Assembly: GCA_036387335.1 (NCBI GenBank) | Contig: DASVTZ010000105.1 | Span: 1-64,000, forward strand | Origin: Longimicrobium sp. | Lineage (GTDB): Bacteria; Gemmatimonadota; Gemmatimonadetes; Longimicrobiales; Longimicrobiaceae | Length of the DNA stretch: 64,000 nucleotides | Direction of reading: 5' to 3' | In this document: positions 19,783 through 54,175 of the stretch, one piece after another | Layout: every line of letters begins with the position of its first letter | Numbering within the stretch: the stretch's first letter is position 1 | The notes under the pieces: generated by a model | What the model was told of the DNA's origin: nothing | Databases searched by the model: none | The model's input: the letters and a program-made list of their open reading frames with translations, nothing else | Made by a program: the position numbers and the translations under genes

Positions 19783-19792
19783 GGGGCGCCTC

Positions 19793-36103: not shown

Positions 36104-36114
36104 TTTTCTGCCGT

Positions 36115-36190: not shown

Positions 36191-36526
36191 ATGGCCCCTC
36201 GAAGCCAGACCGACGCGCTACGTGGCTCGCTCGACCTCCTGATCCTCAAGACGCTCTCGCTGGAGCCGATGCACGGCTGGGGAATCAGCCAGCGCGTGCA
36301 GCAGATCTCGCGCGGGGTGCTGGAGGTGAACCAGGGCTCGCTCTACCCCGCGCTCCAGCGGCTGGAGAAGGAAGGGGTGATCGCAAGCGGCTGGGGAACC
36401 AGCGAGAACAACCGCCGCGCCCGCTACTATGAGATCACCCCCGCAGGCCGCCGCGCCCTCGGCACCGAGCTGGAGAGCTGGAAGCGCTTCGCCGCGGCCC
36501 TCGATCTCGTGCTCGAAAGTGCCTAG
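36191..36526 (+). CDS. PadR family regulator 2
   Basis: This 111-residue winged-helix repressor is closely similar to the other two in the window: 'LRGSLDLLILKTLSLEPMHG', 'NQGSLYPALQRLEKEGVIAS', 'SENNRRARYYEITPAGRRAL'. It is the first gene of an operon with ADOP permease 2 (78-bp gap) and is preceded by two operator-like repeats. Its last codons and stop lie inside a TAGTGCC-type repeat. Confidence 0.93.
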   Translation: MAPRSQTDALRGSLDLLILKTLSLEPMHGWGISQRVQQISRGVLEVNQGSLYPALQRLEKEGVIASGWGTSENNRRARYYEITPAGRRALGTELESWKRFAAALDLVLESA

Positions 36527-36582
36527 TGCCTGGTGCCTAGTTCTGAACCGCGGTTACTGAGCACTTGGCACTTAGCACTATC
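36518..36582. repeat. TAGTGCC-type imperfect inverted repeat
   Basis: Tandem AGTGCCTAGTGCCTGGTGCC on the left and AGCACTTGGCACTTAGCACT on the right are inverted copies of a TAGTGCC/GGCACTA unit around a short centre (AACCGCGGTT, itself palindromic). It supplies the PadR2 stop codon and fills the PadR2-ADOP2 gap. Confidence 0.7.
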
Positions 36583-36604
36583 CCTTCCGCAATCATATCC
36601 CAAT

Positions 36605-39235
36605 ATGAAATCGATCATCGCCCGGCTGCGGCTGCTCCGCCGCAGCGAGGCCGAGGAGCGCATGGAGGACGAGATGCGCTTCCACCTGGAGATGGAGACC
36701 GAGAAGCTCATCCGCGAGGGGGTGAGCCCCGCGGAGGCACGGCGCAGGGCGCGGGTGGCGTTCGGCGGGGTGGAGGGGCACAAGGAGGCGATGCGCGACG
36801 GGCGCACCTTTGCCTGGATGGGCACCCTGTCGCTCGACGCGCGGCTCGGGCTGCGGCTGCTGGTGCGGCACCGCGGTCTGGCGCTCATCGGCGGCTTCGC
36901 CATGGCGACGGCGATCGCGGTGGGTTCGGTGACCTTCGAGGCCCTTTCGCAGGTTCTGCGCGGCACCCTTCCGTTGGACGAGGGCGATCGGGTGGTCGCG
37001 GTCCACTGGTTCTCGGACAGCACGGAGAGCGCCGAGCGGCAGGTGCTGCACGACTTCGCGGAGTGGCGCGGCGGGCTGCGCACCGTGCGGGAGCTGGCCG
37101 CGTTCCGCACCGTGGAGCACAACCTGATGTCCGTGGCGGGCGACCCGCTCCCCGTGGCGGTGGCTGAGATGACCGCGTCGGGGTTCCGCGTAGCCCGCAC
37201 GCCGCCGCTGCTGGGGCGCTACCTGGTGCCGGAGGACGAGCGCCCCGGCGCGCCCGCGGTGGTGGTGATCGGCCACGAGGCGTGGCGCACCCGCTTCGCC
37301 GCCGACCCGCGCATCGTGGGGCGCACCGTGCGGCTCGGCTCCACGCCGCACGTTGTGGCGGGGGTGATGCCGGAGGGGTTCCGCTTCCCCTACGACCACC
37401 AGTACTGGGTGCCGCTGCGCGAGAGCCCGCTGGCGCACGCCCGGCTGGAGGGGCCGTGGCTGTACGTGTTCGGGCGGCTGGCGCCCGGCGCATCCCTCGC
37501 CGAAGCACGGGCCGAGCTGGCGACGGTCGGGCGGCGCACGGCGGCGGCGCACCCCGGGATGTACGACCGGCTCCGGCTCACGGCGATCCCCTTCACCTAC
37601 GACCAAATGGACCTGCAGAGCCCCACGATGCGGCTGGCACTACGCGCGGTGCAACTGCTGGTGGGCGGGCTGCTGGTGGTGGTGGCGGTGAATCTGGCCG
37701 TGCTGCTGTACGCCCGCACCGTGTCGCGCCTGGGCGAGATCGCCGTCCGCAGCGCGCTGGGCGCCAGCCGACGCCGCATCCTGGCGCAGCTCTTCATGGA
37801 GGCGCTCGCCCACTCGGTGCTGGGCGCGCTGGTGGGGCTGGTGGTGGCGAACGGGGTGCTCCGCATGACGCGGCGCTGGATCGCCGCGGCGGGAGGGGGG
37901 AATGGCCTTCCGTTCTGGGTAGACCTGCGCCTGTCGCCCGCCACGGTAGCGTACGCGCTGGCGCTGGCGGCGGTCGCCGCCTTCATCATGGGCGTGCTCC
38001 CCGGCCTCAAGGCGACCGGCGACGGGATGCAGGCCAACCTGCGCGAGCTGCGCTCCGGTCCGCGCCTGGGGCCCGTCTGGAGTGGGCTGATCGTGGCGCA
38101 GGTGGCGTTCGCCATGGCCGTGCTGCCGCCCGCCGTCTACGCCGTGTGGCAGATCATGCGCATGGAGACGGCCAAGATCGGGTTCGCGCCGGACGAGTTC
38201 GTGGTGGGGCAGGTGGAGCTGGGCGAGCCGCCCGCGGGGCTGGACTCGGCCGGGGTGGCGGCGCGCAACGCCTCGCGGCGTACGGCGCTGATGGCGAGGC
38301 TGGCGGCGGAGCCCGGGGTCACCGCCGTCGCCCTTGCATCCTTTGTCCCCGGCCTGGACGAGCCCACCCAGGACGTGGAGATCGACGGTGCCGCCGGGCC
38401 GCAGCAGGGCGCGAGCGCCATCCGCACAACGCCGGAGCTGTTCGGTACGTACGGCGCGCGCATCGCCGAGGGGCGCGCGCTGGCCGAGGGCGATGCGGAC
38501 GCCGTGGTCGTCAACCGCACCTTTGTGCGGCGCCACCTGGGGAACCGCGGCGCCGTGGGCCAGCGGCTGCGCTACAGGAAGGCGGATGGGCCGGGCCGCT
38601 GGTACGAGATCGTCGGCGTGGTGGAGGACTTCCCCGCGGTGCCGCTCGTGATCACCTCGGCGAACGGGGTGGCCAACGTGTACCACGCCGCCCTGCCGGG
38701 CGACGTCCCCGACCCTACCCTCTCGGTGCGCCTGCGCGGCGGGATCCCCGCGGGATTCGTGAGGCGCGTGCAGCGGCTGGGCGTGGAGGTCGATCCCGAG
38801 CTGCAGCTGGGCGTGCGCCCGCTGGCGGAGGTATACGCCTCCGTCCGCTCCTTCTCGCGCTTCATGTCCTGGGCGCTCGCGCTGGTCACGGGGAGCGTGC
38901 TCCTCCTTTCCGCGGCGGGGATCTACGCGCTGATGTCGTTCACCGTGGTCCAGCGCACCCGCGAGATCGGCATCCGCACCGCGCTGGGGGCACAGCCGCG
39001 GCGCATCGTGGCGAGCATCTTTGCGCCGGTGGGGCGCAGGCTGGCCGTGGGCGTGGCGATCGGCGGGGTGCTGGCGGGGGGCATCACCGCCGGCGCGGGC
39101 GTAAGCATGGGGCGGGCCGCACCGCTGATGGCTGCCGTCTGCGCCATCATGCTGGGCGTGGGGCTGCTGGCGGTGCTGGGGCCCGCGCGGCGCGGCCTGC
39201 GCATCCAGCCCATGGAGGCGCTGCGGGAGGCCTGA
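36605..39235 (+). CDS. ADOP family FtsX/MacB-type permease 2
   Basis: This 876-residue membrane protein has the same layout as the other two ADOP permeases. The N-terminal helix 'MEDEMRFHLEMETEKLIREG' is followed by a membrane helix, a large periplasmic MacB-PCD domain ('GYRVARTP..GRYLVPEDE'-type region), central membrane helices, a second periplasmic domain, and three C-terminal helices with 'RTREIGIRTALGAQPRRIV'. No ATPase is nearby. The start at 36605 excludes 24 upstream codons that lie in the TAGTGCC repeat. Confidence 0.9.
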   Translation: MKSIIARLRLLRRSEAEERMEDEMRFHLEMETEKLIREGVSPAEARRRARVAFGGVEGHKEAMRDGRTFAWMGTLSLDARLGLRLLVRHRGLALIGGFAMATAIAVGSVTFEALSQVLRGTLPLDEGDRVVAVHWFSDSTESAERQVLHDFAEWRGGLRTVRELAAFRTVEHNLMSVAGDPLPVAVAEMTASGFRVARTPPLLGRYLVPEDERPGAPAVVVIGHEAWRTRFAADPRIVGRTVRLGSTPHVVAGVMPEGFRFPYDHQYWVPLRESPLAHARLEGPWLYVFGRLAPGASLAEARAELATVGRRTAAAHPGMYDRLRLTAIPFTYDQMDLQSPTMRLALRAVQLLVGGLLVVVAVNLAVLLYARTVSRLGEIAVRSALGASRRRILAQLFMEALAHSVLGALVGLVVANGVLRMTRRWIAAAGGGNGLPFWVDLRLSPATVAYALALAAVAAFIMGVLPGLKATGDGMQANLRELRSGPRLGPVWSGLIVAQVAFAMAVLPPAVYAVWQIMRMETAKIGFAPDEFVVGQVELGEPPAGLDSAGVAARNASRRTALMARLAAEPGVTAVALASFVPGLDEPTQDVEIDGAAGPQQGASAIRTTPELFGTYGARIAEGRALAEGDADAVVVNRTFVRRHLGNRGAVGQRLRYRKADGPGRWYEIVGVVEDFPAVPLVITSANGVANVYHAALPGDVPDPTLSVRLRGGIPAGFVRRVQRLGVEVDPELQLGVRPLAEVYASVRSFSRFMSWALALVTGSVLLLSAAGIYALMSFTVVQRTREIGIRTALGAQPRRIVASIFAPVGRRLAVGVAIGGVLAGGITAGAGVSMGRAAPLMAAVCAIMLGVGLLAVLGPARRGLRIQPMEALREA

Positions 39236-39250
39236 AACAACAGCAAAAAG

Positions 39251-39378
39251 CCTCACACAGAGAACACAGAGGGAACTACAAGCCACAGAGGAAGCCTTGA
39301 TCTGTTCTCTCTGTGTCTCTGTGTCTCTGTGTGAGCCATGCGGTTGCAGTTCCCTCCGCATCTCCGCGTCTCCGCCTA
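39251..39378. repeat. R1 repeat, inner module plus decayed outer right arm
   Basis: CCTCACACAGAGAACACAGA at the left and TCTCTGTGTCTCTGTGTGAG at the right frame the inner module. It is followed by TCCCTCCGCATCTCCGCGTC, a decayed outer right arm. It begins 16 bp after the ADOP2 stop. Confidence 0.78.
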
Positions 39379-39394: not shown

Positions 39395-39425
39395 AAACGT
39401 ATACATTAGAACAAACGTATACATT
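39395..39425 (+). promoter_or_regulatory. twin 13-bp direct repeat before exported-protein cluster
   Basis: AAACGTATACATT occurs twice, at 39395-39407 and 39413-39425, an 18-bp period. Each copy contains the palindrome GTATAC. The pair lies about 43 bp before the first gene of the cluster and is far more AT-rich than its surroundings, so it may be a regulator binding site or part of the promoter. Confidence 0.55.
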
Positions 39426-39467
39426 GGGATCAGTGTCGACGGGAGCCCCGGGTTCTGGAGAGCGCAC

Positions 39468-40697
39468 ATGAGACGGGCAATCGCGTGGGTGGCTGTATCG
39501 GTGTCGGCTGCCGCCCTCCTGGCCTGCGGCAAGGACCCGGTCGCGAAGGGCGGTGATCCCAAGCTCGCGCTTTCCCTGGACAGCGTGACCGTCGATCTGG
39601 GCACTTCCGCCTCGGTGGCCGCGACGGTGGTCAACACCAGCGGGACGGCACAGTTCGTCTCGCGCGATCCGGGTGTGGCGACCGTGAATGCCAGCGGCGC
39701 CATCAGCGGCGTCGCGGTCGGCTCGACGTACGTGGTCGCCACGCTCGCGGGCAACGCGGAGGTGCGTGACTCCGTGCGCGTTCGCGTGCGGGAGCCGATC
39801 GACGGCGAGTGGGGGATCAAGGCGAATCTGCTCGAGAACCAGTCGGAGTTCGCCCTCGCCGAAGCGAACGGCAAGCTCTACGTCATGGGCGGTTATCCTC
39901 CCTCCCGGGTGACGTCCCGCACGGTGCAGGTCTATGACATCGCGCTCGACCGCTGGCAGCTCGGCCCACAGCTCCCGCAGCCCAACAACCACGGGATGGC
40001 GGCGGGCGTCAACGGGAAGATCTACCTGCTCGGCGGCCAGTTCACGGACGACCAGGAGGGCGCCACGGCCGTCAACACGTTGTACGAGCTGGACCCGGCG
40101 GTGGGTGCATGGGTGCAGAAGGCCCCGATGCCCACCGCGCGCAGCGGAGGTGTGGCGGTAGTGCTCGGCGGCAAGATCTACGTCGCCGGGGGACGGGTGC
40201 CGCGCGGAAACGACTTCGCCGTGTACGACCCGGCGGCGGACCGGTGGGAGGTGCTGCCCAATCTGCCTTCCCAGCGCAACCACATCGCTGGCGCGGCGAT
40301 CAACGGGCGCATCCACATCGTTGGCGGGCGCCTGGGCAACGGCCTGTCGCCCCTGAAGTCGGATGCGCACGAAGTCTACGACCCGCAGACGCGCACCTGG
40401 ACGACCGCGGCTCCCATGCTGAGCGGCCGCAGCGGGATCAACAGCGTCATGGCCCGCGGCTGCTTCCACGTCTGGGGCGGCGAGGCGCCGAGCGGCATGA
40501 CCCCCCAGCACGAGTACTACGATCCCCGCACCAGCCAGTGGACGAGCCTCCGTCCCATGCCTCTGCCCGTGCACGGGGTGGTCGGGTCGGCCTTCGTGAA
40601 CGGACTGATCTGGGTAACCGGTGGCGGCACCCAGGTGGGCGGCGCCTCCGGCAGTCTGCACAACCAGACCTACCGGCCGATCGTGAGCTGCGAATGA
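39468..40697 (+). CDS. Big_2-kelch lipoprotein
   Basis: This 409-residue lipoprotein (signal ending 'AAALLACGKDP') has a Big_2 immunoglobulin-like domain at about 25-110 ('VSRDPGVATVNASGAISGV', 'GSTYVVATL') and a C-terminal kelch beta-propeller of about six blades ('ANGKLYVMGGY', 'VNGKIYLLGGQ', 'LGGKIYVAGGR', 'INGRIHIVGGRL'). Kelch propellers bind ligands or proteins; some act in sialic acid metabolism. No catalytic motif was seen. The Big_2 unit is nearly identical in layout to that of the hydrolase at 46480. It is the first gene of the cluster. Confidence 0.85.
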   Translation: MRRAIAWVAVSVSAAALLACGKDPVAKGGDPKLALSLDSVTVDLGTSASVAATVVNTSGTAQFVSRDPGVATVNASGAISGVAVGSTYVVATLAGNAEVRDSVRVRVREPIDGEWGIKANLLENQSEFALAEANGKLYVMGGYPPSRVTSRTVQVYDIALDRWQLGPQLPQPNNHGMAAGVNGKIYLLGGQFTDDQEGATAVNTLYELDPAVGAWVQKAPMPTARSGGVAVVLGGKIYVAGGRVPRGNDFAVYDPAADRWEVLPNLPSQRNHIAGAAINGRIHIVGGRLGNGLSPLKSDAHEVYDPQTRTWTTAAPMLSGRSGINSVMARGCFHVWGGEAPSGMTPQHEYYDPRTSQWTSLRPMPLPVHGVVGSAFVNGLIWVTGGGTQVGGASGSLHNQTYRPIVSCE

Positions 40698-40726
40698 CGC
40701 CGCGCGACGCGTAGGGAGACCCGCTC

Positions 40727-43117
40727 ATGCCGCGCATGGCTGCACGGGCGGCGGCGATCGCCGTTGCGTGCGGTGCCCTGGCGGCCATCTCCGCACCGGC
40801 GGCGGCGCAGCACGAACATCACGGGATTCCGGCCGGCGGCTCCCAGGCGGTGCTGACCGGAACGGCTTCGTGCGCGGAAGGCGCGCCGTCGAGCGGCGCT
40901 ATCGTACAGCTCTTCCATGGCGACGGCTCCGGCCGTCACCTCATGGCGGCATCGGCGGCCGATGCCGCCGGCCGCTTTTCCCTCCGCGCCCTCCCCGGCA
41001 CCTACACGCTCGAGATCGGCTACCCGGGGCATGCGCCGCACCGCCAGCAGGTGAGCGTCGCCGGCGCCGCCGTGCGCGTGGGCAACGTGCGCCTCCGCTG
41101 CGGACCGCTGGGGCTGGATACGCTGACGGTGAGGGCGGAGCGCGAGGCGGTCCAGCTCCGCAGCGGCGCGACCGTCGTGGATGTGCGCGCGTCCGCCACG
41201 GCGGGGGGCAGCATCGCGGACCTCCTGCGCACCGTCCCCGGCGTCGAGCTGGACGCGGACGGGCGCATCGCCATGCGCGGCGGCACGGGGGTGCTGGTGC
41301 TGATGAACGGGCGGCGCATCCCGCTGGCCGGCGATGCGCTCGCCGCGTTTCTGCGCCAGATGCCGGCGGCGGCGCTGGACCGCATCGAGGCGGGCACCAC
41401 GGCGTCCGCGCGGCAGGATGCGGACGGCGCGGCCGGTGTGGTGAACCTCGTCTTCCGCGACGATGCCACGCGGCGCACCGGGATGCGCTCGCTGGCGGGC
41501 TCCATGGCGTCGGACGATCACTACGCGGGCTCCGCCGCCGCCGCGGGCCACGTGCGCGGCGTGCTGAGCTGGGATGCGACGTACTCCTTCTCCGGCATGC
41601 GGCCGCGCACGGACTCCAGGACGGCGCGCTGGAGCCTCGTGCCCGGCGACCTCCCTCTCCAGACCGACGAGGACAGCCGCGGGCGGGCGAGGCACCGCCT
41701 GCACTCCGTCATGGCGGGCGCGGCGCTGACGCCGGCGCCGGGCGCGTCGCTGGCGCTGCGCGGCGCGTACTCCTGGATGGAAGGCGCGTCACGAAACAGC
41801 ACCGCGTTCGTTTACACCAATGCGGCCGGAGACACGGGAACGAGCGCCACCGGCAGCCTGGTGGAGCACGTGATCCCGTCCGCCGAGCTGAGCGCCGCCG
41901 CGAGTGTGGACCGGGGGCGCTTCCGCTTCGCTTCGGAGGCGCGCACCAGCCTGGTGGATGAGGACTTCCGGGGCGACTACGACGACGTGGGCGCGGGCTT
42001 CCGCTACAAGTCCACCGCCATGACCTCGCGGCAGCGCGAGCACGTACTGCGCAACGACCTCGCTGTCCACTTTCCGGGGATCGATCTGGAGGTGGGGCAG
42101 GAGTCGCGGTTCCGCACCATCAACGCGGAGCACGATGCGACCCACTTCGGCGCGACCGTTTCGCAGGACTACCGCTACCGGACGGAGGTGCACGCCGGCT
42201 ACCTGGCCGCGCACCGCGTCACCGGCAGCGTGCGCGCGGAGGCGGGGCTGCGCCTGGAGGCGGACCGGACCCGCATCGAGCTGGAGGCCGCCAGCGAACG
42301 GACGGACGTGCGCCTATTCCCCAGCATCAGCGGCGAATGGACCGATGCGCGCCGCGGACTCGTGTACCGGCTCGCGTACGGCCGCCGCATCAACCGGCCC
42401 GGTCCCGAGATGCTGAATCCGTTCCCCATGGCCGAGAACGACGCGCACGAAGTCGTCGGCAACCCGTCGCTGCGGCCGGAGCTTTCGGACCAGGTGGAGT
42501 TCGGCGTGGAGCGGCCCGGCTCGCTGCTGACGCTGCAGCTCACGCCGTTCCTCCGCTGGACGCGCGACCCGATCCGCCCACTCATGGCGGCGACGGAGAG
42601 GGGCGGCTCCACGACCACGCTGGCGAACCTGGACCGGACGCGTGCCGGCGGCGCCGACGGCAGCGCGCGTGCGCGGCTGGCGCCCGGCACGGTCGTGACG
42701 CTTGCGGGCAGCGTCATCCACGCGGAGACGACGGGCGACGCGTTCGGCAGCAGCGGCGTGTACGCCACGGCGCGGCTCACCGTCGATATGCGGGTGGCCG
42801 AGAACACGGCGGTGCAGCTCTACGCGTACCGCCGCAGCGCCCAGGCGATCGAACAGGGCGAGATCCTGCCGGCGTTCACCAGCGAGCTGGCGGTTACGCG
42901 GCGGCTCGCCGCCGACCGGGGGCGCGTGACGCTTCGCCTCAACGATCCGTGGCGAGGCGACCGTACCGAGTTCCGGGTCGCCGATACGGGCTTCACGCAG
43001 GAGAGCCGCCGGCGCACGGCGCGGCCGCTGCTGTCGCTGTTCGCGTCGTACGCGGTGGGCGGCGCGCCGCGCGACGATGCACCCGCCCGCCCCGAGGGTC
43101 CGCCGCGCATCTTTTGA
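40727..43117 (+). CDS. TonB-dependent-receptor-like outer membrane beta-barrel
   Basis: This 796-residue protein has a signal peptide ('LAAISAPAAAQ'), a carboxypeptidase-regulatory-like domain ('LPGTYTLEIGYPGHAPHRQQ') and a TonB plug ('GSIADLLRTVPGVELDADGR', 'ASARQDADGAAGVVNLVF'). A long beta-barrel follows ('VGNPSLRPELSDQVEFGVER', a barrel motif of the OMP_b-brl_3 type), ending in aromatic/Phe residues (RIF). No clear N-terminal TonB box is seen. It would import or bind a ligand at the outer membrane. It follows the kelch gene by 29 bp. Confidence 0.88.
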   Translation: MPRMAARAAAIAVACGALAAISAPAAAQHEHHGIPAGGSQAVLTGTASCAEGAPSSGAIVQLFHGDGSGRHLMAASAADAAGRFSLRALPGTYTLEIGYPGHAPHRQQVSVAGAAVRVGNVRLRCGPLGLDTLTVRAEREAVQLRSGATVVDVRASATAGGSIADLLRTVPGVELDADGRIAMRGGTGVLVLMNGRRIPLAGDALAAFLRQMPAAALDRIEAGTTASARQDADGAAGVVNLVFRDDATRRTGMRSLAGSMASDDHYAGSAAAAGHVRGVLSWDATYSFSGMRPRTDSRTARWSLVPGDLPLQTDEDSRGRARHRLHSVMAGAALTPAPGASLALRGAYSWMEGASRNSTAFVYTNAAGDTGTSATGSLVEHVIPSAELSAAASVDRGRFRFASEARTSLVDEDFRGDYDDVGAGFRYKSTAMTSRQREHVLRNDLAVHFPGIDLEVGQESRFRTINAEHDATHFGATVSQDYRYRTEVHAGYLAAHRVTGSVRAEAGLRLEADRTRIELEAASERTDVRLFPSISGEWTDARRGLVYRLAYGRRINRPGPEMLNPFPMAENDAHEVVGNPSLRPELSDQVEFGVERPGSLLTLQLTPFLRWTRDPIRPLMAATERGGSTTTLANLDRTRAGGADGSARARLAPGTVVTLAGSVIHAETTGDAFGSSGVYATARLTVDMRVAENTAVQLYAYRRSAQAIEQGEILPAFTSELAVTRRLAADRGRVTLRLNDPWRGDRTEFRVADTGFTQESRRRTARPLLSLFASYAVGGAPRDDAPARPEGPPRIF

Positions 43118-43122
43118 CATCA

Positions 43123-43171
43123 AGTCACAGAGAACTCTTCTGCTTTCCTCTCTGTGGCTCTGTGTGAGGCC
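43123..43171. repeat. R1 repeat, partial inner module
   Basis: AGTCACAGAGAACTC at the left and CTCTGTGGCTCTGTGTGAGG at the right form a short inner module, 6 bp after the barrel gene stop and inside the gene cluster. Confidence 0.7.
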
Positions 43172-43202
43172 ATCTGTTCAGCCCACGACCCGGAGGTCGC
43201 TC

Positions 43203-45056
43203 ATGCGCCCCGCCCCGCTGCTCCCCGCGCTCATCGCCGCGCTCGTCGCCGCCTGCGATGGAGGCGGACCCGTAGAAACGGCGGGGCCGATCCACGTGAT
43301 CTCCGTCGATACGCTTCATCCTGGGCAGATCGCCCACGTGCGCGGCACCGGCCTCGCCAGCCTGCGCTCGCTCATGCTGGACGGCGTGGAAGCAAAGGAG
43401 CTCGTTGCGCTGTCCGACAGCGTCGCCGAGTTCCGGGTGCCTTCCATGCGCGCCTGCGAGACCGACATGCGCGCCGTGAAGCTGTCCGCGAACGGATCGG
43501 CGCCGGTCGGCGGCATCGTACGCGTCCCACCCAGTTTCTCGCTGCGCCCGGCTGAGTCGCGCGTCCTGACCGAGGACGACCTGCGCTGCCTGCGCCTGCC
43601 GGCCGCCGACGAGGACTACGTGCTGAGCGCCGCCAACCTCGCGATCCCGACGGCGGAGGTGGAGTCCCCGCGCACGCTGGTTTCCGTCCGCCTCCTGGGC
43701 ACCGGCGACGCCGCCCCGGCACTCTCATCGTCCGCCGCACCCGGACCGCTCGCGACCTTCTCCGCACCCGGTGCCGGCACGCCGCTGGAGCCCGCGATCC
43801 CCGCACTGGCCGCGCCGGTGGGCAGCTACTCGCAGGCGCCGGCGCCATTCGACCCGCGCTACGCCACGGCGGTCATGGGGGACACGCTGCGCTTCGTCGA
43901 CTGGTTCTCCGGCAAGCCGGGGATCTGCCACCTGCCGGCGGACTCGGTGCCCACCTTCCAGGCCAAGGTCGTCGCCGTCTCGGGCCGCGTCGCCGTCGTC
44001 GTCGATCTGCGGCACCCGCTGGCGGCGGGGTTCATCGATCCGGCGAAGAACGGCTGGCTGCGCGACGCGGCGGCGATGGCGGACCGATGGCTGCTGCCGA
44101 CGATGCGCTCCGTCTTCGACGCCGACTTCCAGCCTCCCGCCGGGGGCGGCGGCCGCTTCTACGTGCTGCTCGGCACGCTGCAGCTCGGCACCGGCTTCGC
44201 CTACGACGGGCCGCTGCCGACCGTGAACGTCGCGAGCCAGGCGAGCTGCCCGCGTGCCTCGGAGATGGTCGTCAGCCTGCACAGCGCCGACCGGCTGGCG
44301 CTGCCGCAGAACCAGAACGCGAGCTACGCGGCGGGGGTGTTCCTCCACGAGTACGCCCACAACGCCGACCTGATCACCAGCCACCGCGACCGCACGCAGA
44401 GCATCCTGAACGAGGGCCTGGCCACGCTCGCCATGGAGACGGCCAGCCGTATCGGCTCGGGGCAGCCGCTCCACGCGCTGCACTCGCGCGCCGGCGGCGA
44501 CGCACCGTTGCCGTTCGAGGGCGCGGTCGGCCTGTGGGGCACGGAGCCGGCGCTCGGGCCCTGGCAGAGCAACGGCCGCTACGGCGCGAATGCGCGCATG
44601 CTCCTCTTCCTGCGCGAGCTGGCGGGCGAGGCCTCGGTCGATCACGGGCGCCGGCCGACGCTGTATCAGCGCCTCATCTACGCGCCGGTCGACTGGCTCA
44701 ATCGCCCCGCGGTCATCGCCCACATCACCTCGACGCTCGGCATCAGCTACGCCGACCTGACCGACCGGCAGACGCTGGCGAGCGTCACCGCCGGGCTCAT
44801 CGACCCGGGCGTCGCGCACGACCTGCCGCGCTACACCTCGTGGGACCATTCCGAGCGCGCACGCGTGTCCGGCCCGCTCTCCGTGGGGTTCCCCGGCCGC
44901 GCCGGCCGCCGCGCCAACGGCGAGCACACCCTGGCGGCCGCGGACGGCGGCCACGCGGCGCTGTACCTGATGGCGGACGGGCCACGCGGGGTCTCGCTGG
45001 AGCTCGTGTCGATGGCGCAGTCGGCGCGCATCGTACGGGTGACCCGGCTGCGCTGA
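43203..45056 (+). CDS. HEXXH metalloprotease-like lipoprotein
   Basis: This 617-residue lipoprotein (signal ending 'LVAACDGGG') has an N-terminal IPT/TIG-like stretch ('ISVDTLHPGQIAHVRGTGLA'). The zinc motif HEYAH is at 382-386 ('VFLHEYAHNADLI'), and a Glu ligand candidate at 404 in 'ILNEGLATLAME' makes it a gluzincin-like metallopeptidase, recalling M30 hyicolysin-type enzymes. The C-terminal part after 'RYTSWDHSERARVSG' is a beta-sandwich-like region. It is the third gene of the cluster. The substrate is unknown. Confidence 0.78.
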   Translation: MRPAPLLPALIAALVAACDGGGPVETAGPIHVISVDTLHPGQIAHVRGTGLASLRSLMLDGVEAKELVALSDSVAEFRVPSMRACETDMRAVKLSANGSAPVGGIVRVPPSFSLRPAESRVLTEDDLRCLRLPAADEDYVLSAANLAIPTAEVESPRTLVSVRLLGTGDAAPALSSSAAPGPLATFSAPGAGTPLEPAIPALAAPVGSYSQAPAPFDPRYATAVMGDTLRFVDWFSGKPGICHLPADSVPTFQAKVVAVSGRVAVVVDLRHPLAAGFIDPAKNGWLRDAAAMADRWLLPTMRSVFDADFQPPAGGGGRFYVLLGTLQLGTGFAYDGPLPTVNVASQASCPRASEMVVSLHSADRLALPQNQNASYAAGVFLHEYAHNADLITSHRDRTQSILNEGLATLAMETASRIGSGQPLHALHSRAGGDAPLPFEGAVGLWGTEPALGPWQSNGRYGANARMLLFLRELAGEASVDHGRRPTLYQRLIYAPVDWLNRPAVIAHITSTLGISYADLTDRQTLASVTAGLIDPGVAHDLPRYTSWDHSERARVSGPLSVGFPGRAGRRANGEHTLAAADGGHAALYLMADGPRGVSLELVSMAQSARIVRVTRLR

Positions 45057-45171
45057 GCGGCCGCATTCCACCCCCAACCACGGGCAACCCATGCGTGAGC
45101 GTGCATCCCTCTGCCTGCATCGTCCCACCGGACGCGCACGCGGCGGCGCCAGCGGATCGATCGCGGTTGCG

Positions 45172-46464
45172 ATGGTCAGGATCGCGTTTCTCGCGGCCCT
45201 GCTTTCCTGCAGCGGAGAGCCGGCCGCGCCGCACGTCGATCCCCCGGTCACGCCTCCCGCGGAACAGGAGATCCCCATCAGCGGCGCCGCGGTGCCGGGG
45301 ATGGGGTCGTACGATCAGGTCATCCCCGCACTCATGCGCAAGCACGGCATTCCCGGCGGCGCGGTCGCCGTGGTGCGCGACGGACGGCTGATCTACGCGC
45401 GCGGCTTCGGCTACGCGGACGTCGAGAACAAGACGGTGGTGCAGCCCGACGCGCTGTTCCGGATCGCCAGCATGTCCAAGCCGATCACCGCCGCCGCCAT
45501 CATGAAGCTCGTCGAGGAGGGCAAGCTCAGGCTGGACGACCGCGTGGCGCCCCTCATCGCGCACCTGGCGCCCGCGCCGGCAGCGACCGTCGATCCGCGG
45601 TGGGAGCAGATCACCATCCGGCACCTGCTCAACCACAGCGGGGGCTGGGATCGTGGCAAGCCGAACGGCGGATTCGACCCGATCGACCGGCCGCTGATCG
45701 CCGCCGCCGCCGTCAACGCTCCCGCCCCGGCGTCCTCTGAGACGCTCGTCCGCTACATGAAGGGAATGCCGCTGGACTTCAACCCCGGCGAGAAGTTCGC
45801 CTACTCGAACTTCGGCTACATCATCCTGGGCCGCGTGATCGAGCGCCTGAGCGGCATGCGCTACGAGGAATACGTGCGCGCACGCGTGCTGCAGCCCGTG
45901 GGCGCCAACCGCACGCAGCAGGGCAGGTCGCTCATGCGCAACGCGCTCCCGGGCGAGGTGAAGTACTACTGGCCGGGCATGGGGGTGAACGCGCCCGCGG
46001 TGCCGTCGGTTTTTCCGGGCGAGGGCACGGTGCCCTTCAACTACGGCGGCTTCCACCTGGAAGCGGGGGATGCGAGCGGCGCGTGGGTGTCGTCCACCAT
46101 CGATCTCCTGCGCTTCCTGACCGCCGTCGATGGCCGCGCCAGCCGTCCGGACATCCTCAGCACCGCGCTCGTGGCGGAGATGACCGGCAGCGGCGCAATG
46201 GTGTGTCCGGATGGCGGATGCTATTACGGCGCCGGCTGGTTCGTCCGCCCGATGCAGGGCGACGCGAACTGGTGGCACGGCGGAACGCTGCCCGGCAACA
46301 CGAGCATGATGGTGCGCACGTACCACAACTTCGCGTTCGTCGGGCTGTTGAACACCCGCTCGCTGACCGCCAACCTGGAGGCCGAGCTCTATGCCGCGCT
46401 GTGGAATGCGCACGAGGGCGCCACGTCGTTCCCCACGCACGACCTGTTTTCGAACTTCCCGTGA
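45172..46464 (+). CDS. class-C beta-lactamase-like serine hydrolase 1
   Basis: This 430-residue lipoprotein (signal 'MVRIAFLAALLSC') belongs to the beta-lactamase/PBP-like serine hydrolase family (PF00144). The catalytic SxxK is 'SMSK' (Ser100, Lys103), the second motif YxN is in 'KFAYSNFGYIILG', and the third is 'WWHGGTLPGN' (HGG). Family members include esterases, D-aminopeptidases and AmpC enzymes; the substrate is undetermined. An upstream ATG at 45091 would add 27 residues with a long charged leader; 45172 gives a cleaner lipoprotein signal. It is followed by a 15-bp gap. Confidence 0.88.
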   Translation: MVRIAFLAALLSCSGEPAAPHVDPPVTPPAEQEIPISGAAVPGMGSYDQVIPALMRKHGIPGGAVAVVRDGRLIYARGFGYADVENKTVVQPDALFRIASMSKPITAAAIMKLVEEGKLRLDDRVAPLIAHLAPAPAATVDPRWEQITIRHLLNHSGGWDRGKPNGGFDPIDRPLIAAAAVNAPAPASSETLVRYMKGMPLDFNPGEKFAYSNFGYIILGRVIERLSGMRYEEYVRARVLQPVGANRTQQGRSLMRNALPGEVKYYWPGMGVNAPAVPSVFPGEGTVPFNYGGFHLEAGDASGAWVSSTIDLLRFLTAVDGRASRPDILSTALVAEMTGSGAMVCPDGGCYYGAGWFVRPMQGDANWWHGGTLPGNTSMMVRTYHNFAFVGLLNTRSLTANLEAELYAALWNAHEGATSFPTHDLFSNFP

Positions 46465-46479
46465 CGTGAGGCGCGTACG

Positions 46480-47676
46480 ATGAAATCGGCGAAGTCTATC
46501 GCCGCCGTTGCGCTGGCGTGCGCCGCGTTCGTGGCGTGCGACGGGAACCCGGTCGAACAGAGTGGCGATCCGCGGCTCACGCTCTCCGCGGACAGCGTGG
46601 TGGTGGGCGTATACGAATCGTCTCCGCTGACCGCCACGGTGCGCAACGCCAGCGGGGCGGTACTGTACGTATCGCGCGATCCGGGCGTTGCTACCGTGAA
46701 CGCCGGCGGGGCCATCAGCGCCGTGGCGGCGGGCTCCACGTACGTCGTCGCCTCGCTCCTCGACCGCCCGGAGGTGCGCGACTCCGTGAGGGTGCGCGTG
46801 CACGCCGATTCCTGCACGGGTGCGCGTCCCGCTTTCGGCGTGGCGACCGCGGAGGACCGGAAGCTGTTCAGCTACGACGCCGGTGCACCGCTGAACCTGC
46901 AGAAGACGGTCGAAAGCACGACCAACGGCGTGGAGGCCAGCAGCATCTCGTTCAGCGGTCCGGACGGCGTGGTGACAGGAATGCTGTGGGACCCGGTCAC
47001 GCACACGGGTCCGCGCCCCGGCATGGTGCTGATGCACGGCCTGCCCGGCAACGCGAAAGCCATGGCGGGCATCGCGCAGAACTACGCGAAGTACGGCGCG
47101 GTCGTCATCGCCATCGACGCGCCGTGGAATCACCGCACGACGCCGCCCTACCTGACGATCACCGACCAGGACCGGACCGAGCAGATCCAGGTGATCAAGG
47201 ATCTGCAGCGCGCCGTGGACGTACTGCGCTCGCGCCCCAACGTGGACGCCGGCCGCATCGCGTTCGTGGGCTTCAGCTGGGGCGGCGCGACGGGCGCGCT
47301 GTTCGTCGGCATCGAACGGCGCCTCAAGGCGGCGGCGCTGGTGGTGGGGCACGGCGGCCAGGTCTCGCACGCCACGGGTCCGGAAGGCTTCAAGCTCATC
47401 TCCGGCTTCCCGTGTGCCCGGCGCGTCGCCTGGATCCGGGCGATGGCGCCCATCGAGCCGATTCGCTTCATCGGGAACGCCAACGTCCCGCTATACCTGC
47501 AGAACGGGAAGTTCGACCCGCTGATCCCCTATGCCGATGCGGCGGAGCTGCACGCCGCCGCGCCGCAGCCCAAGACGGTTCTCTGGTACGACGCGGGACA
47601 CGACCTCAGCCAGCAGGCCCGCGACAACCGGCACGACTGGCTGGTCGAACAGATCGGGATCGACGCTCGCCTGTAA
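46480..47676 (+). CDS. Big_2 domain fused to alpha/beta hydrolase (dienelactone-hydrolase-like)
   Basis: This 398-residue lipoprotein (signal ending 'AAFVACDGNP') has a Big_2 domain at about 25-110 and an alpha/beta hydrolase from about 145. Catalytic elements: the oxyanion strand 'GMVLMHGLPGNAKAM', the nucleophile 'VGFSWGGATGALF', Asp in 'LQNGKFDPLIPYAD' and His in 'YDAGHDLSQQA'. It resembles dienelactone hydrolase or acetyl-esterase-like proteins. The Big_2 unit closely resembles that of the kelch protein at 39468. Confidence 0.85.
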   Translation: MKSAKSIAAVALACAAFVACDGNPVEQSGDPRLTLSADSVVVGVYESSPLTATVRNASGAVLYVSRDPGVATVNAGGAISAVAAGSTYVVASLLDRPEVRDSVRVRVHADSCTGARPAFGVATAEDRKLFSYDAGAPLNLQKTVESTTNGVEASSISFSGPDGVVTGMLWDPVTHTGPRPGMVLMHGLPGNAKAMAGIAQNYAKYGAVVIAIDAPWNHRTTPPYLTITDQDRTEQIQVIKDLQRAVDVLRSRPNVDAGRIAFVGFSWGGATGALFVGIERRLKAAALVVGHGGQVSHATGPEGFKLISGFPCARRVAWIRAMAPIEPIRFIGNANVPLYLQNGKFDPLIPYADAAELHAAAPQPKTVLWYDAGHDLSQQARDNRHDWLVEQIGIDARL

Positions 47677-47711
47677 TCGCACGCAACCGCCTTTCGAACC
47701 CGGAGGACGCC

Positions 47712-48818
47712 ATGCGGATCGTCGCTGCCCTCACCCTGCTGGCCTGCGTCGCGTGCGGCGCCGGCGAGGCCACCACCCCCGACGCGGCCGCCACGCAGGC
47801 GGCGGCCGACTCGGCCTTCGTGGCCGCCCTGCGCGCGCACCTCGACGCCGCCACGGCGGCCGGCGAGTTTTCGGGCGCCGTGCTCGTGGCCCGCGACGGG
47901 AGCACGCTGTTCGAGGGCGCCTACGGCCTCGCGGACCGGGAGCGGGGCGTGCCGAACACGCCGCTCACGCAGTTCCGCGTCGGCTCGATGAACAAGATGC
48001 TGACCGCGGTCGCGACGATGCAGCTGGTGCAGGCCGGCACGCTGCGCCTGGACGTGCCGATCGCCACGTACCTGCCGGACTACCCGAACGCGGAGCTGGC
48101 GTCCAAGGTGACGCCGCACCACCTGCTGACCCACACCGGCGGCACGGGCGACATCTTCGGGCCGGAGTTCATGGCCCGCCGGCTGGAGCTCCGCAACCCG
48201 GGCGACTACCTGCGGCTCTACGGCGCGCGCGGCCTGCGCTTCGAGCCCGGCGCGCGGTGGGAGTACAGCAACTACGGCTTCATGCTCCTGGGCGCCCTCA
48301 TGGAGCGGGTGGGCGGCAGGAGCTACGACGAGCAGGTGGCCGCGCGCATCCACGCCCCGGCCGGGATGACGGCCACCGGCGCGGCGCCCGAGGACTCGGT
48401 CGTGCCCGGGCGTTCTCTGGGCTACATGCGGCAGGCGTCCGGCGCACTCGTGTCGAACGCGCCGACGCTCCCGTATCGCGGCACGCCGGCAGGGGGCGGC
48501 TACTCCACCGTGGGCGACCTGGCGCGCTTCGCCGTCGCCCTGCGCGAGCACCGGCTCCTGGACGCCGCACACACCTCCCAGCTCCTCGCCGGAAAGGTGG
48601 ACGTCGGCCCAGGGACGCGGTATGCGTACGGATTCTTTGACCGCATGGTGAGCGGCCGTCGCATCCTGGGGCACAGCGGCGGCGCGCCGGGGATGAACGG
48701 AGAGCTCGCCTTCGAGCCGAATGGCGGGTACGTGGTCGTGGTCCTGTCGAACTTCGACCCTCCGGCCGCCAGCCAGGTCTCGGCCTTCATCCTCAGCCGC
48801 CTGCCGGCCGGCGGCTGA
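47712..48818 (+). CDS. class-C beta-lactamase-like serine hydrolase 2
   Basis: This 368-residue lipoprotein (signal 'LTLLACVACGAGE') is a second member of the PF00144 family: SxxK 'SMNK' (Ser92, Lys95), YxN 'EYSNYGFMLLG', and 'LGHSGGAPGM' as third motif. It is clearly diverged from the protein at 45172, so this is probably not a recent duplication. The ATG is preceded by GGAGG. It is the last gene of the exported cluster, ending 12 bp before an R1 repeat. Confidence 0.9.
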   Translation: MRIVAALTLLACVACGAGEATTPDAAATQAAADSAFVAALRAHLDAATAAGEFSGAVLVARDGSTLFEGAYGLADRERGVPNTPLTQFRVGSMNKMLTAVATMQLVQAGTLRLDVPIATYLPDYPNAELASKVTPHHLLTHTGGTGDIFGPEFMARRLELRNPGDYLRLYGARGLRFEPGARWEYSNYGFMLLGALMERVGGRSYDEQVAARIHAPAGMTATGAAPEDSVVPGRSLGYMRQASGALVSNAPTLPYRGTPAGGGYSTVGDLARFAVALREHRLLDAAHTSQLLAGKVDVGPGTRYAYGFFDRMVSGRRILGHSGGAPGMNGELAFEPNGGYVVVVLSNFDPPAASQVSAFILSRLPAGG

Positions 48819-48829
48819 CCACCGCTTAT

Positions 48830-48975
48830 CTCACGCAGAGGCGCAGAGACGCAGGGAGAGAACAACAGAGAAAGCCACGCGGAAAACCTTTTGCGGTTCT
48901 CTCTGTGGCTCTGTGTCTCTGTGTGAGCCATGCCGTTGCGGTCCTCTCCTGCGTCTCTGCGCCTCTGCGTGAGAC
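48830..48975. repeat. R1 repeat, complete composite
   Basis: This is the clearest full copy: outer left arm TCTCACGCAGAGGCGCAGAG, inner palindrome (AAAACCTTTTGCGG), inner right arm TCTCTGTGTCTCTGTGTGAG, and outer right arm TGCGTCTCTGCGCCTCTGCG ending GTGAGAC. It sits between convergent genes, 12 bp after one stop and 11 bp from the other. Confidence 0.85.
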
Positions 48976-48985
48976 TTCCGTCGCA

Positions 48986-49753
48986 TCAGCCGGCGACATT
49001 CCCCCGCTGCTGGGCGGCCGAGAACACGCTGTGGAACCCGGCTTCGCCCACCTGTTCCACGATCCTGGCGAGACGATCGGCGCCGTTGAACCAGTTGGTG
49101 CGCACCGCCGCCTCCGCCACGTCCGCGCGCCCCGACTCGATCGCCGCGATGATCGCGTCGTGCTCCTCGAACGTCTCCTCGAAGCTCCCCGCGCCGTAGA
49201 GCGGACCGCAGAAGTACTCGTACCGGTCGAGGTGCGAGCGCAGCCCGTCCAGGATCAGGCAGAGGCGCGGCCCGGCGAGCCTGGCCCTCAGCAGCCCGTG
49301 AAACGCGTGGTGCAGCTCGAACAGCCGGTCCCAGTGAGGCGTGCGCTTCGTGGCCTCGCGCCGGAATGCCGCCTGCGCCTTGGCCAGATCCGCCGCCAGC
49401 GCGAGCCGCTCGCCCTCGCCGCAAACGGCCACGTTGCGGACGATGACACCCTCCAGCGCGCCCGCCGCGGTGCCCAGCTCGCGCGCCTCGCCGGCGGTCA
49501 TGGGAGCCACCGCGAGGCGCATCTTGGCGCCGTCGCTCGCCCCGGTAGGCACGAGCAGCCGCTCCTGCTGCAGGCGCCGCAGCGCTTCGCGGGCGGGCGT
49601 GCGGCTGACCCCCAGCTCCTTTGCGACATCCGCCTCGGTGACCCGCGTGCCCGGCAGGAGCCGGCCGCACACGATGAGGGCGCGTACCTCGTCGTAGATC
49701 GCGAGCGAGGCGGGTGCGGGAGCCGGGGGCGATGCGTCGGTGCGCCGGGGCAT
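48986..49753 (-). CDS. GntR family regulator with FCD domain
   Basis: This 255-residue protein has an N-terminal GntR winged helix ('LLPGTRVTEADVAKELGVSR', 'TPAREALRRLQQERLL') and a C-terminal all-helical FCD effector domain with metal-ligand-like residues ('WDRLFELHHAFHGLL', 'FEEHDAIIAAIESG'), the FadR subfamily. Such proteins sense carboxylate metabolites. No target operon is evident beside it. The ATG at 49753 is preferred; the open frame extends to 49825. Confidence 0.9.
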   Translation of the reverse strand: MPRRTDASPPAPAPASLAIYDEVRALIVCGRLLPGTRVTEADVAKELGVSRTPAREALRRLQQERLLVPTGASDGAKMRLAVAPMTAGEARELGTAAGALEGVIVRNVAVCGEGERLALAADLAKAQAAFRREATKRTPHWDRLFELHHAFHGLLRARLAGPRLCLILDGLRSHLDRYEYFCGPLYGAGSFEETFEEHDAIIAAIESGRADVAEAAVRTNWFNGADRLARIVEQVGEAGFHSVFSAAQQRGNVAG

Positions 49754-49925
49754 TCGGCTCGGGGAGGGGGTGAGGGATCGCCCGGGAAAATTATCGACCC
49801 CGCCCGCGGCCCGCCATACCGCCACACCGAGAGAACAACAGAGAAAAGCAGGCTCCTCGCCATTCCGTAGGGCACCGCACGCCGATGCGCCCGCGCCTCA
49901 ACCATGCCGAGGCCTAGTTACCTGC

Positions 49926-51267: not shown

Positions 51268-51404
51268 TCACGCAGGGGCCACAGGAAGGAACAGAAAGCC
51301 ACAGAGCAAACCTTGCGGTTCTCTCTCTGTGGCTCTGTGTCTCTGTGTCTCTGTGTGAGCCCTGCAGGTGCGGTTCTCCCGCGCCTCCGCGTCTCCGCGT
51401 GAGC
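51268..51404. repeat. R1 repeat, composite
   Basis: A decayed outer left arm (TCACGCAGGGGCC), inner right arm TCTGTGTCTCTGTGTCTCTG...TGAGCC and outer right arm CGCGCCTCCGCGTCTCCGCG ending GTGAGCC. It ends 17 bp from the stop of minus-strand ADOP permease 3. Confidence 0.78.
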
Positions 51405-51420
51405 CCTGCTGTTGCCCGCC

Positions 51421-54141
51421 CTACTCCGCCCGCAACGCCTCGCTGGGCTGCACGCGCAGGGCACGGCGGGTGGGCACCACGCAGGCGAGCATGCAGATGG
51501 CCAGCATGACCAGCGCGTTGGCCACGAGCAGCGCAATGTTCCCCATCGTCAGGGCCGCGTCGGGATCCCGGGGCGCGCCGTCGGGACGGTGGCCGACCGC
51601 GATGTACGCGGCGGCCGTCACCAGGATGAACCCGACCGTGATGCCGGCGCCCACCTGCGTGAGCGGCTTGCGGAAGATGGCGGCGACGACGCGCGCGCGC
51701 GGGGCACCCAGCGCCACGCGCACGCCGATCTCGCGCGTCCGCCGCGCCACCGTGAACGACAGCACCGCGTAGATGCCGGCCAGCGAGAGCAGGAGCACGA
51801 CCCCGGTCAGCAGGAGCGTGATCTTGAACCACATGCCGAGGATCCAGAGGTTGGCGCTGGTCACCTGGTCCACGGGCTGGAGCTCCGTGAGCCGCAGCAT
51901 GGGGTCCACCTCAGCGGCGATCTCGCGGATGCGCGGGGCCAGCGACATCGGGTCGCCCGGCACGTGGACGATCATGTTGAGCGGCAGCTCGCGGCCCGGA
52001 GCGGCCGGCAGGTACACCCCCGCCGCGCGATCGTCGTCGTACGCGGAATTCATCCCGAGATCCCTGACGACGCCGACGATCTCGTACCACGGGGCGGAGG
52101 GTTCGGGGGTCTGCTCGCCGCGCTTCAGGAAGCGCAGGTGCCGGCCCACCGGGCTGCGCCCCCGCAGCATGCGGTCGACGAATCCCTGGTCCACGATCAC
52201 CACGTGCGCGTCGGGCCCCAGATCGGCGGCGCCGAAGCCGCGGCCAGCCATGACCGGCGCCTTCAGCACGTCGAAGTACGAGGGATCGACGGCCGCGGTG
52301 CGCACCACCGGGTTGGCCAGCGGCGGGCCGGCCGCCGCCGAGGGGCCGGAGGGGGCGTCCAGCTCGATCCGCCGCCCGTTGTGGTGGTCGAGCGGCACGG
52401 CGTCCACGAAGGTGGCGCCCGCGACGCCGGGCTCCGCCTCCAGGCGCTGGCGCAGCGTCCCCACCGCCGCCGCGAAGCGGGCCATCTGCGCGGCCGTGTC
52501 CGCGCCCACCTCGGAGTCCAGCTGCACCCTCAGGTACTCGCCGGACGCGAACCCCGGGTCGAGCGAGCGCACCCGCGCCGCCTCCCGCTGCACCGTGAAG
52601 GTGACCGCCGGAAAGGCGACCGTGAGCGCGACCTGCGTGACGATCACCGCCGTCCACACGCCGCCGAACCGCACCCCGCCGCCCCCGCCCGTGCCCTGCT
52701 TCAGCCGCGAGCCCAGGCCGCGCGTGATCTTGCGCGCGGGCACCATGCCGGCGATGGCGGCGCCCAGCAGGGTGAGCGCGCAGGCGTAGAGCACGGTGCC
52801 GGGCGTCAGGTTCAGGTTGAACCAGAAGGGGAGCGCCCCCAGGTTGCGCTCCAGGAACTCGACGCCCCAGTCGCGGAGCGCGAGCTGCGCCAGGGCCAGC
52901 CCCACCACGGCCGCTACGGCGCCCAGCACCAGCGCCTCGGCCACGAGCTGCGCCACGATGCGGCCGCGGGTGGCGCCCAGCGCGCTGCGCACCACCAGCT
53001 CGGACTCGCGCCCGGCCGCGCGCGCAAAGAGCAGCAGCGCCACGTTTGAGCAGATGACGACCAGCAGCATCACGGCGAACACGTTGAACGACCCCATGAG
53101 GGCCATGTCGTCCATGGATGCGGTGGCCGGGTCCGTGTAGCGCGCGACTCGCGGCTGCAGGTGGCGGTGCGTGTCCGGCCGCTCGGCGGCGGCGCGGCGG
53201 CCCATGGCGGCCAGCTCCGTCTGTGCCTGCTGGATGGTGACGCCCGGCGCAAGGCGGCCGAAGACCTGAATGGCCGGCCCCTCGCGCGGCGCGGGGACGA
53301 TGGCGTCCGGCCTGAACGGCGTCCACAGCTCGTGCGCCACGGGGAAGGCGAAGCCTTCCGGCATCACACCCACCACCGTCGCCTGCGTGTCGCCGAGCCG
53401 CACGGTGCGGCCCACGATGCCGGCGTCGCCCGCGAAGCGCGTCCGCCACACCTCGTAGCCAAGCACGGCCACCGGCGCCGCGCCCGGCCGCTCGTCGCCC
53501 GGCACCAGCGCGCGGCCCAGGAGCGGCGCCTCAGGGGCGATGCGGAACGCCGACGCGCTGATCTCCGCCCCCCGCAGCGGGCGCCCCGCCTCGCTGCCGG
53601 CGATCAGGTTGATGGAGATCTCGCGGTAGGCGCCGAGATCGGCCACCGAGCGCAGGCCGCCGCGCCACGCGAGGAAGTCGCTCAGCGCGCGCGGCTCCTC
53701 CTCGTTCGCCGCTGCGTCCCAGTTGCGGATGCGCACGATGCGCTCGGCGTGCGGAAGGGGGAGCGTCGGATTCAGGAACTGGTTGACGAGCACGAACGTG
53801 ACGGATCCGGCCCAGATGGCGAACGCCATCGCCAGCCCGCCGACGATCGTGAGGCCGGGGTACTTCACCAGCATCCGGAAGCCGAGCTTGAAGTCGAGCG
53901 AGAGGCCGCTGAGCCACGCCAGCCCCCGCCCGTCGCGCAGCGCCTCCTTGTGCCCCTCCACCCCGCCGAACGCCACCAGCGCCCGCCGCCGCGCCTCCAC
54001 CGGCTCCAGCCCCTCCTCGCGGACGAGCCGCTCCGTCTCCATCTCGATGTGGAAGCCGATCTCCTCGTCCATCCGCTCCTCGGCCGCGCGCCGCCCGAAC
54101 AGCAGGGCGAGGCGCGCGCGGATTCCATCGATCCATCTCAT
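51421..54141 (-). CDS. ADOP family FtsX/MacB-type permease 3
   Basis: This 906-residue membrane protein is built like the other two: 'MDEEIGFHIEMETERLVREE' at the N-terminus, a membrane helix 'GLAMAFAIWAGSVTFVLVNQ', two MacB-PCD periplasmic domains, and FtsX-type cores ('RTREIGVRVALGAPRARVV' near the C-terminus). It is most similar in layout to permease 2, including 'VAFGGVEGHKEALRDGR'. It lies in an operon with PadR3 (34-bp gap). No ATPase is nearby and the substrate is unknown. Confidence 0.9.
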   Translation of the reverse strand: MRWIDGIRARLALLFGRRAAEERMDEEIGFHIEMETERLVREEGLEPVEARRRALVAFGGVEGHKEALRDGRGLAWLSGLSLDFKLGFRMLVKYPGLTIVGGLAMAFAIWAGSVTFVLVNQFLNPTLPLPHAERIVRIRNWDAAANEEEPRALSDFLAWRGGLRSVADLGAYREISINLIAGSEAGRPLRGAEISASAFRIAPEAPLLGRALVPGDERPGAAPVAVLGYEVWRTRFAGDAGIVGRTVRLGDTQATVVGVMPEGFAFPVAHELWTPFRPDAIVPAPREGPAIQVFGRLAPGVTIQQAQTELAAMGRRAAAERPDTHRHLQPRVARYTDPATASMDDMALMGSFNVFAVMLLVVICSNVALLLFARAAGRESELVVRSALGATRGRIVAQLVAEALVLGAVAAVVGLALAQLALRDWGVEFLERNLGALPFWFNLNLTPGTVLYACALTLLGAAIAGMVPARKITRGLGSRLKQGTGGGGGVRFGGVWTAVIVTQVALTVAFPAVTFTVQREAARVRSLDPGFASGEYLRVQLDSEVGADTAAQMARFAAAVGTLRQRLEAEPGVAGATFVDAVPLDHHNGRRIELDAPSGPSAAAGPPLANPVVRTAAVDPSYFDVLKAPVMAGRGFGAADLGPDAHVVIVDQGFVDRMLRGRSPVGRHLRFLKRGEQTPEPSAPWYEIVGVVRDLGMNSAYDDDRAAGVYLPAAPGRELPLNMIVHVPGDPMSLAPRIREIAAEVDPMLRLTELQPVDQVTSANLWILGMWFKITLLLTGVVLLLSLAGIYAVLSFTVARRTREIGVRVALGAPRARVVAAIFRKPLTQVGAGITVGFILVTAAAYIAVGHRPDGAPRDPDAALTMGNIALLVANALVMLAICMLACVVPTRRALRVQPSEALRAE

Positions 54142-54175
54142 GGGGGTGCTCCAGGGGGGTGTTTGCGGGGGTCGA

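Follow-up and report, generated by a model that had tools for sequence, protein, structure and literature searches.

Background

In the Sus-like polysaccharide utilization loci (PULs) of Bacteroidota, a TonB-type receptor, surface lipoproteins and secreted enzymes are encoded together with a local regulator as a single exchangeable locus, and lipidated Ig-like N-terminal spacers (DUF1735/BACON) are known from their proteins (PMC11216935). Serine hydrolases of peptidase family S12 (PF00144), such as the R61 DD-peptidase and alkaline D-peptidase, carry the motifs SxxK, YSN and HxG. Lasso peptide isopeptidase loci combine a TonB receptor with a secreted serine hydrolase that opens the imported peptide. 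The mlr cluster for microcystin degradation directs a PF00144-type serine peptidase, MlrB, and a metallopeptidase, MlrC, at a peptide substrate (PMC4810221). Regulators of the FadR subfamily join a GntR helix-turn-helix (HTH) to an FCD domain, bind carboxylic acids and have the operator consensus NyGTM-N0-1-KACNy (PMC4494728).

We describe a locus of six genes for exported proteins and a regulator gene in a 64,000-nt stretch of Longimicrobium sp. DNA (the window) that resembles each of these systems in part. With PULs it has in common a TonB-type receptor, a local regulator, enzymes, and lipoproteins whose lipidated spacers are Ig-like, all in a single exchangeable locus, but its hydrolases are of the S12, alpha/beta and metallopeptidase-like kinds and its regulator is of the GntR/FCD type. 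Since none of the six proteins has a SusD-type Pfam match or falls in a glycoside hydrolase or lyase family, we do not class the locus as a PUL, although it is Sus-like in logic; its receptor is of the PF14905/Plug TonB type, with no SusC-family match among the matches listed. The S12 motifs are found here in two diverged, lipid-anchored copies that share a locus with a receptor and a regulator. The likeness to mlr lies in the published description of that cluster; the block contains no MlrA, its metallopeptidase is an HExxH lipoprotein of a family of its own, and a TonB receptor and a GntR gene are present. The alpha/beta hydrolase reaches 19 bits with the lasso isopeptidase model, whose cut-off is 400, and the GntR protein reaches no equivalog cut-off (best phnR_burk, 61 vs 271.5 bits).

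Judged by sequence, all parts except the metallopeptidase belong to known families, and no paper in the library searched names a system with this composition. Gemmatimonadota has very few cultured species, six (PMC10581226), and in this phylum the locus would define a conserved and exchangeable capture system. It also contributes a candidate family of metallopeptidases that matched no library entry, and its regulator, four enzymes and pair of operator-like sites offer testable handles.

Organization of the locus

Six consecutive open reading frames (ORFs) on the + strand span 39468-48818, with successive gaps of 29, 85, 115, 15 and 35 nt, as a first-pass annotation of the window had described. 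KELCH (39468..40697) is a predicted lipoprotein with an N-terminal Big_2-like stalk and a kelch propeller (PF01344, E 1e-34); its orthologues are 71-85% identical. BARREL (40727..43117) is an outer-membrane protein of the TonB-dependent receptor type with CarboxypepD_reg, Plug and OMP_b-brl_3 domains (PF14905, E 5.5e-40) and, by eye, a Sec-type signal; it is one of many such barrels in the window's genome. It is followed by METALLO (43203..45056), a lipoprotein with an HEYAH...E zinc motif of the gluzincin type; BLA1 (45172..46464), an S12-type serine hydrolase lipoprotein with SMSK, YSN and HGG; ABH (46480..47676), in which a Big_2 stalk precedes an alpha/beta hydrolase of the DLH type with the nucleophile motif GFSWG; and BLA2 (47712..48818), a second S12-type lipoprotein with SMNK, YSN and HSG. 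Convergent with BLA2 on the - strand lies a GntR/FCD regulator gene (48986..49753).

The first-pass annotation had assigned lipoboxes to five of the six proteins, and inspection by eye finds the corresponding cysteines in KELCH (LLAC), METALLO (VAAC), BLA1 (LLSC) and BLA2 (LLAC), with a weaker one in ABH (FVAC). The block contains no inner-membrane transporter and no cytosolic catabolic enzyme, and scans for promoters and terminators gave no more matches than chance. The cluster genes are under purifying selection (dN/dS 0.24-0.39).

The hydrolases

BLA1 and BLA2 both match PF00144 above cut-off (E 2e-68 and 2e-63), and SxxK, YSN (YxN in the family pattern) and HxG are kept in their orthologues wherever each motif could be read. 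The third motif is HGG or HTG in BLA1 and HSG in BLA2, not KTG. The best PDB sequence matches of the pair are D-peptidases, penicillin-binding proteins (PBPs) and the R61 DD-peptidase, the latter two being nearest to BLA2 across its whole length; against the class C beta-lactamase model bla_class_C the two proteins score 64.6 and 58.5 with a cut-off of 415. "Beta-lactamase-like" is therefore best read as S12-type. The earlier domain calls of kelch, barrel and Big_2-alpha/beta hydrolase thus hold, but the class C beta-lactamase label does not, as HxG stands in place of KTG. A total of 16 PF00144 genes exceed the cut-off in the window's genome.

METALLO has no significant match in Pfam, NCBIfam or PDB sequences. 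All of 12 homologues, at 29-84% identity, keep residues H383, E384, H387 and E405 (P0003 numbering); the protein thus combines HExxH with an invariant downstream Glu ligand, the gluzincin pattern. Because of this invariance METALLO is probably an active gluzincin-type zinc peptidase, which agrees with the HEXXH metalloprotease first proposed. AlphaFold2 models had pLDDT values of only 30 and 32. The gene was found in 15 of 395 genomes, with no relative outside Gemmatimonadota in the bacterial genome collection and none on plasmids.

Members of a distant METALLO subfamily, about 31-38% identical, are encoded opposite a large Ig-rich protein of ~1365 aa at loci L036, L037, L040, L041 and L042, with an M23-type peptidase gene nearby in all five. 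An N-terminal stretch covering roughly residues 1-200 of METALLO recurs in other large ORFs of 700-900 aa (L063, L064 and L065; G221, G187 and G260) and may be a separate mobile domain. In Roseisolibacter (L022 2584-5325 = L079) this N-terminus is in frame with a ClpV/ClpB-like ATPase, and the next gene is VgrG-like. We discarded this fusion as a probable assembly misjoin; METALLO is intact in the congeneric genome G177, and the join falls in a GC-rich linker.

Conservation across Gemmatimonadota

The locus was compared between the window's family (f1, 21 genomes) and a second family (f5) that includes Roseisolibacter (Gemmatimonadaceae). Roseisolibacter sp. H3M3-2, a culturable carrier, has some of the genes. 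Within f1, orthologues are grouped on one strand in G013, G016, G005 and G015; KELCH adjoins a more distant ABH relative (about 48%) in G014; BLA1 stands isolated in G011, G012, G014 and G017; and no BARREL orthologue was found in G016 or G005. In f5, G177 carries all six genes within 13.3 kb on one strand of a single contig; the arrangement is BLA2, a 143-aa protein, ABH', ABH, KELCH, an aldo/keto reductase, METALLO, BLA1, CPD402 and BARREL, with GntR on the opposite strand. Best-match identities to the window's proteins are 64-75%, and 80% for GntR. Such a grouping in another family is not a chance association. CPD402 is another alpha/beta hydrolase, as judged by its GHSQG motif; its relationship to ABH is remote, with an hhalign probability of 26%.

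G260, also in f5, has KELCH, BLA1, ABH (71%, with Big_2), a BLA2 remnant and GntR, which is the window's order minus BARREL and METALLO, and G419 has KELCH, BARREL and CPD402. BARREL directly follows KELCH in four genomes (the window's, G013, G015 and G419), and a convergent GntR orthologue sits at the same cluster end in the window, G013, G177 and G260. The neighbours differ in G016, G005, G015 and G177, yet the cluster genes remain grouped.

Conservation of gene order had been suggested as a check on the original proposal, and the outcome does not refute it. Order is kept in G013, across two contigs and with inserted genes, and in G260, but is permuted in G177, G188, G016, G005 and G015. The additional genes of the G013 block encode another TonB receptor, accompanied by an ECF sigma factor, as well as an M23 peptidase and a further ABH. 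Since G013 has a broken METALLO and four genomes have an isolated BLA1, a fixed stoichiometric system is not needed. The neighbourhood is therefore real and wider than the genus, with fluid order and membership.

Divergence and exchange of the block

G013 is a near relative, with background proteins at 90-96% identity. DNA identity to it is 90-92% in the flanks (32.1-39.2 kb and 51.4-58.8 kb) and falls to 81-88% across 39455..49821 (no strand assigned), a block that runs from 13 nt 5' of KELCH to just beyond GntR and delimits the unit. The six genes first recognized thus belong together, but the conserved unit also takes in the GntR gene outside their span. Synonymous divergence (dS) is 0.25-0.43 inside the block and 0.19-0.20 in the flanks, so faster protein evolution alone is insufficient as a cause; replacement with a diverged copy explains the pattern. 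The BLA1 tree intermixes f1 and f5, and a single f5 clade is rejected (p-AU 0.0038). Together, the divergence block and the mixed tree indicate that the block moves or recombines as a unit within the phylum, and on this sequence evidence two Gemmatimonadota families keep and exchange the seven-gene block as a whole. A simple argument for horizontal transfer from raw interfamily identity was rejected, since a DNA polymerase of the B type, the sole background gene that could be compared, likewise reaches 71%. PilT was excluded as a divergence baseline because paralogues confuse the comparison.

Lipidated stalks

KELCH and ABH share a lipobox and a Big_2 module, as had been noticed at the outset; the stretches 39613..39789 in KELCH and 46625..46801 in ABH, both on the + strand, are 80% identical in DNA over 177 nt, and the modules are 64.7% identical as protein. 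No other protein of the window's genome (G000) matched this module at the thresholds used. The ABH relatives in G177, G014 and G016 have no Big_2 stalk. In G177 and G188, KELCH has the same propeller behind a CarboxypepD_reg-like N-terminal module, which matches the N-terminus of CPD402 from the same locus at 65% (G177) and 58% (G188). Propeller and hydrolase therefore share a stalk in both families, while the stalk and the hydrolase themselves differ.

Simple recombination within the locus could account for this concerted swap, and so could selection for a shared docking partner; should the swap be selected and not accidental, it would suggest how the surface lipoproteins of one locus stay together. 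A more speculative proposal, which we consider doubtful, is that KELCH and BARREL form a new SusCD-like capture pair in which the stalk would be a locus-specific docking tag swapped in concert, perhaps assembling propeller and hydrolase on a common partner.

Regulator and candidate operators

The GntR gene product matches PF00392 (HTH, E 4e-14) and PF07729 (FCD, E 5e-12), the domain pair of the FadR subfamily. Two copies of a motif with a GTATAC core, by which it was located, lie 5' of KELCH on the + strand: AACGTATACATTAG at 39396..39409, with one mismatch to AACGTATACATTGG, and an exact AACGTATACATTGG at 39414..39427, 41 nt 5' of the KELCH start. Copies with one mismatch precede KELCH in two genomes (G013 and G260), METALLO in G015 and ABH in G177, which with the window makes five genomes that have the motif 5' of one of these three genes; G419 has a copy with two mismatches just before KELCH. 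The core matches the FadR-subfamily operator consensus (PMC4494728); we treat the sites as candidate operators.

Across 587 kb of loci no further sequence comes within one mismatch of the motif, and the 969 kb of background searched (569 kb from G000, 400 kb from G177) has nothing within two. Because the consensus derives from these very sites, what counts as evidence is the clean background and not the fit. The G177 part of that background lacks the GTATAC core, in a sequence where TATA is rare. A scan with the general FadR pattern gave intragenic matches only. The motif is present in four loci with an adjacent GntR gene and absent from G016, G005, G014 and G188, where no GntR was seen on short contigs; this co-occurrence is no more than a hint that the two belong together, and the GntR/FCD protein is the likely switch of the block. 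TATA is found just 10 times in the 400 kb of G177 (L080-L099), a sequence of 74% GC, and GTATAC is missing altogether; such scarcity looks like strong avoidance.

Proposed function and alternatives

The first-pass annotation had taken the six genes for a candidate undescribed envelope system for capture and processing, and conservation in a second family, interfamily exchange, a common candidate operator and a local GntR gene now support the view of a co-selected locus of this kind, although the annotation had overlooked the regulator and the operator-like sites, and also that the composition varies. We favor, at roughly even confidence, a regulated surface locus that captures and hydrolyses a compound with amide or ester bonds from outside the cell; a peptide, muropeptide or depsipeptide is the likeliest. 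The KELCH lipoprotein would bind the substrate beside the TonB-dependent BARREL; the lipid-anchored BLA1, BLA2, ABH and METALLO would cut it at the outer membrane, their presumed surface location; and BARREL, if TonB-coupled, would import the pieces. The GntR/FCD protein would repress the block through the GTATAC operators upstream of KELCH until released by a small carboxylate product. Gene content, conservation, exchange as one block, the common motif and intact catalytic motifs are direct observations on this locus; the substrate class, an amide or ester compound, we infer. The lean towards D-peptides or muropeptides comes from the nearest S12 structures and from the M23 genes in G013 and near the distant METALLO subfamily in five loci; a beta-lactam target, along the lines of the lactam first suggested, is no likelier than any other amide or ester.

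We prefer capture and hydrolysis because the six genes and GntR occur together in G177, G260 keeps the order minus two genes and the genes stay grouped as flanks differ; because divergence is block-wise, BLA1 has been exchanged between families, the motif is locus-specific and the regulator's subfamily binds carboxylates; and because catalytic residues are invariant, selection is purifying and KELCH adjoins BARREL in four genomes. We counted against it the many barrels in the genome, the BARREL orthologues missing from G016 and G005, the broken METALLO of G013, the isolated BLA1 genes, the often permuted order and the lack of a transporter or catabolic gene in the block. Some of these points would suit an accretion zone, in which exported lipoprotein genes gather by recombination at a tolerant site without joint function: order and composition vary, repeats lie on either side (39239-39369 and 48830-48980) with a part copy inside (43124-43175), the genome has 16 PF00144 genes above the cut-off, and BLA1 is solitary in four genomes. 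Such gathering seems unlikely, however, given that all six genes and GntR share a locus in another family, the six on one strand, and that they stay together in varying flanks, share a motif and are under purifying selection.

The hydrolases might instead act at the surface against an antibiotic, either a peptide or a beta-lactam, and inactivate it, a defensive role already raised in the first-pass annotation and one that the PF00144 fold, four unlike hydrolases in one exchangeable block and the patchy distribution would fit. We think this quite unlikely: the third motif is HxG, not KTG, scores fall far below every beta-lactamase cut-off, none of the seven proteins matches a PADLOC defence model, an uptake receptor would be odd in a detoxification set, and the adjoining ADOP permeases lie outside the divergent block. 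The resemblance of BLA2 to the R61 DD-peptidase and PBPs, together with the M23 genes, would also accord with S12 enzymes that trim the cell's own peptidoglycan while the other proteins help to remodel the wall. Envelope maintenance of this kind is improbable in a block so patchy and exchangeable (METALLO in 15 of the 395 genomes), unlike housekeeping genes, and a TonB-type receptor with a FadR-subfamily regulator suits import better.

Repeats and adjoining neighbourhoods

An intergenic repeat family, defined by CTCTGTGGCTCTGTGTCTCTGTGTGAG and its complement, occurs in the window at about 24866-24958, 35985-36115, 39239-39369, 43124-43175, 48830-48980, 51285-51420 and 62199-62523, never within a called gene, and the G013 contigs C34 and C86 both end near a copy. 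Three ADOP/MacB-type permeases, each with a PadR-type regulator, lie at 17122-20128, 36191-39235 and 51421-54511; two of these pairs flank the locus outside the divergent block. At the window's edge (1-1329), the product of a - strand ORF looks by eye like an IS-type transposase. A second conserved neighbourhood (L068 4918-13898 and L077 1996-12639; G016 and G013) comprises a twin-arginine-type aldo/keto reductase with DUF3471, two DUF3471 proteins, an MFS protein, an M16 peptidase, a LytTR response regulator and a histidine kinase. In G177 and G188 the reductase, like a LytTR pair, is found within the main locus or next to it.
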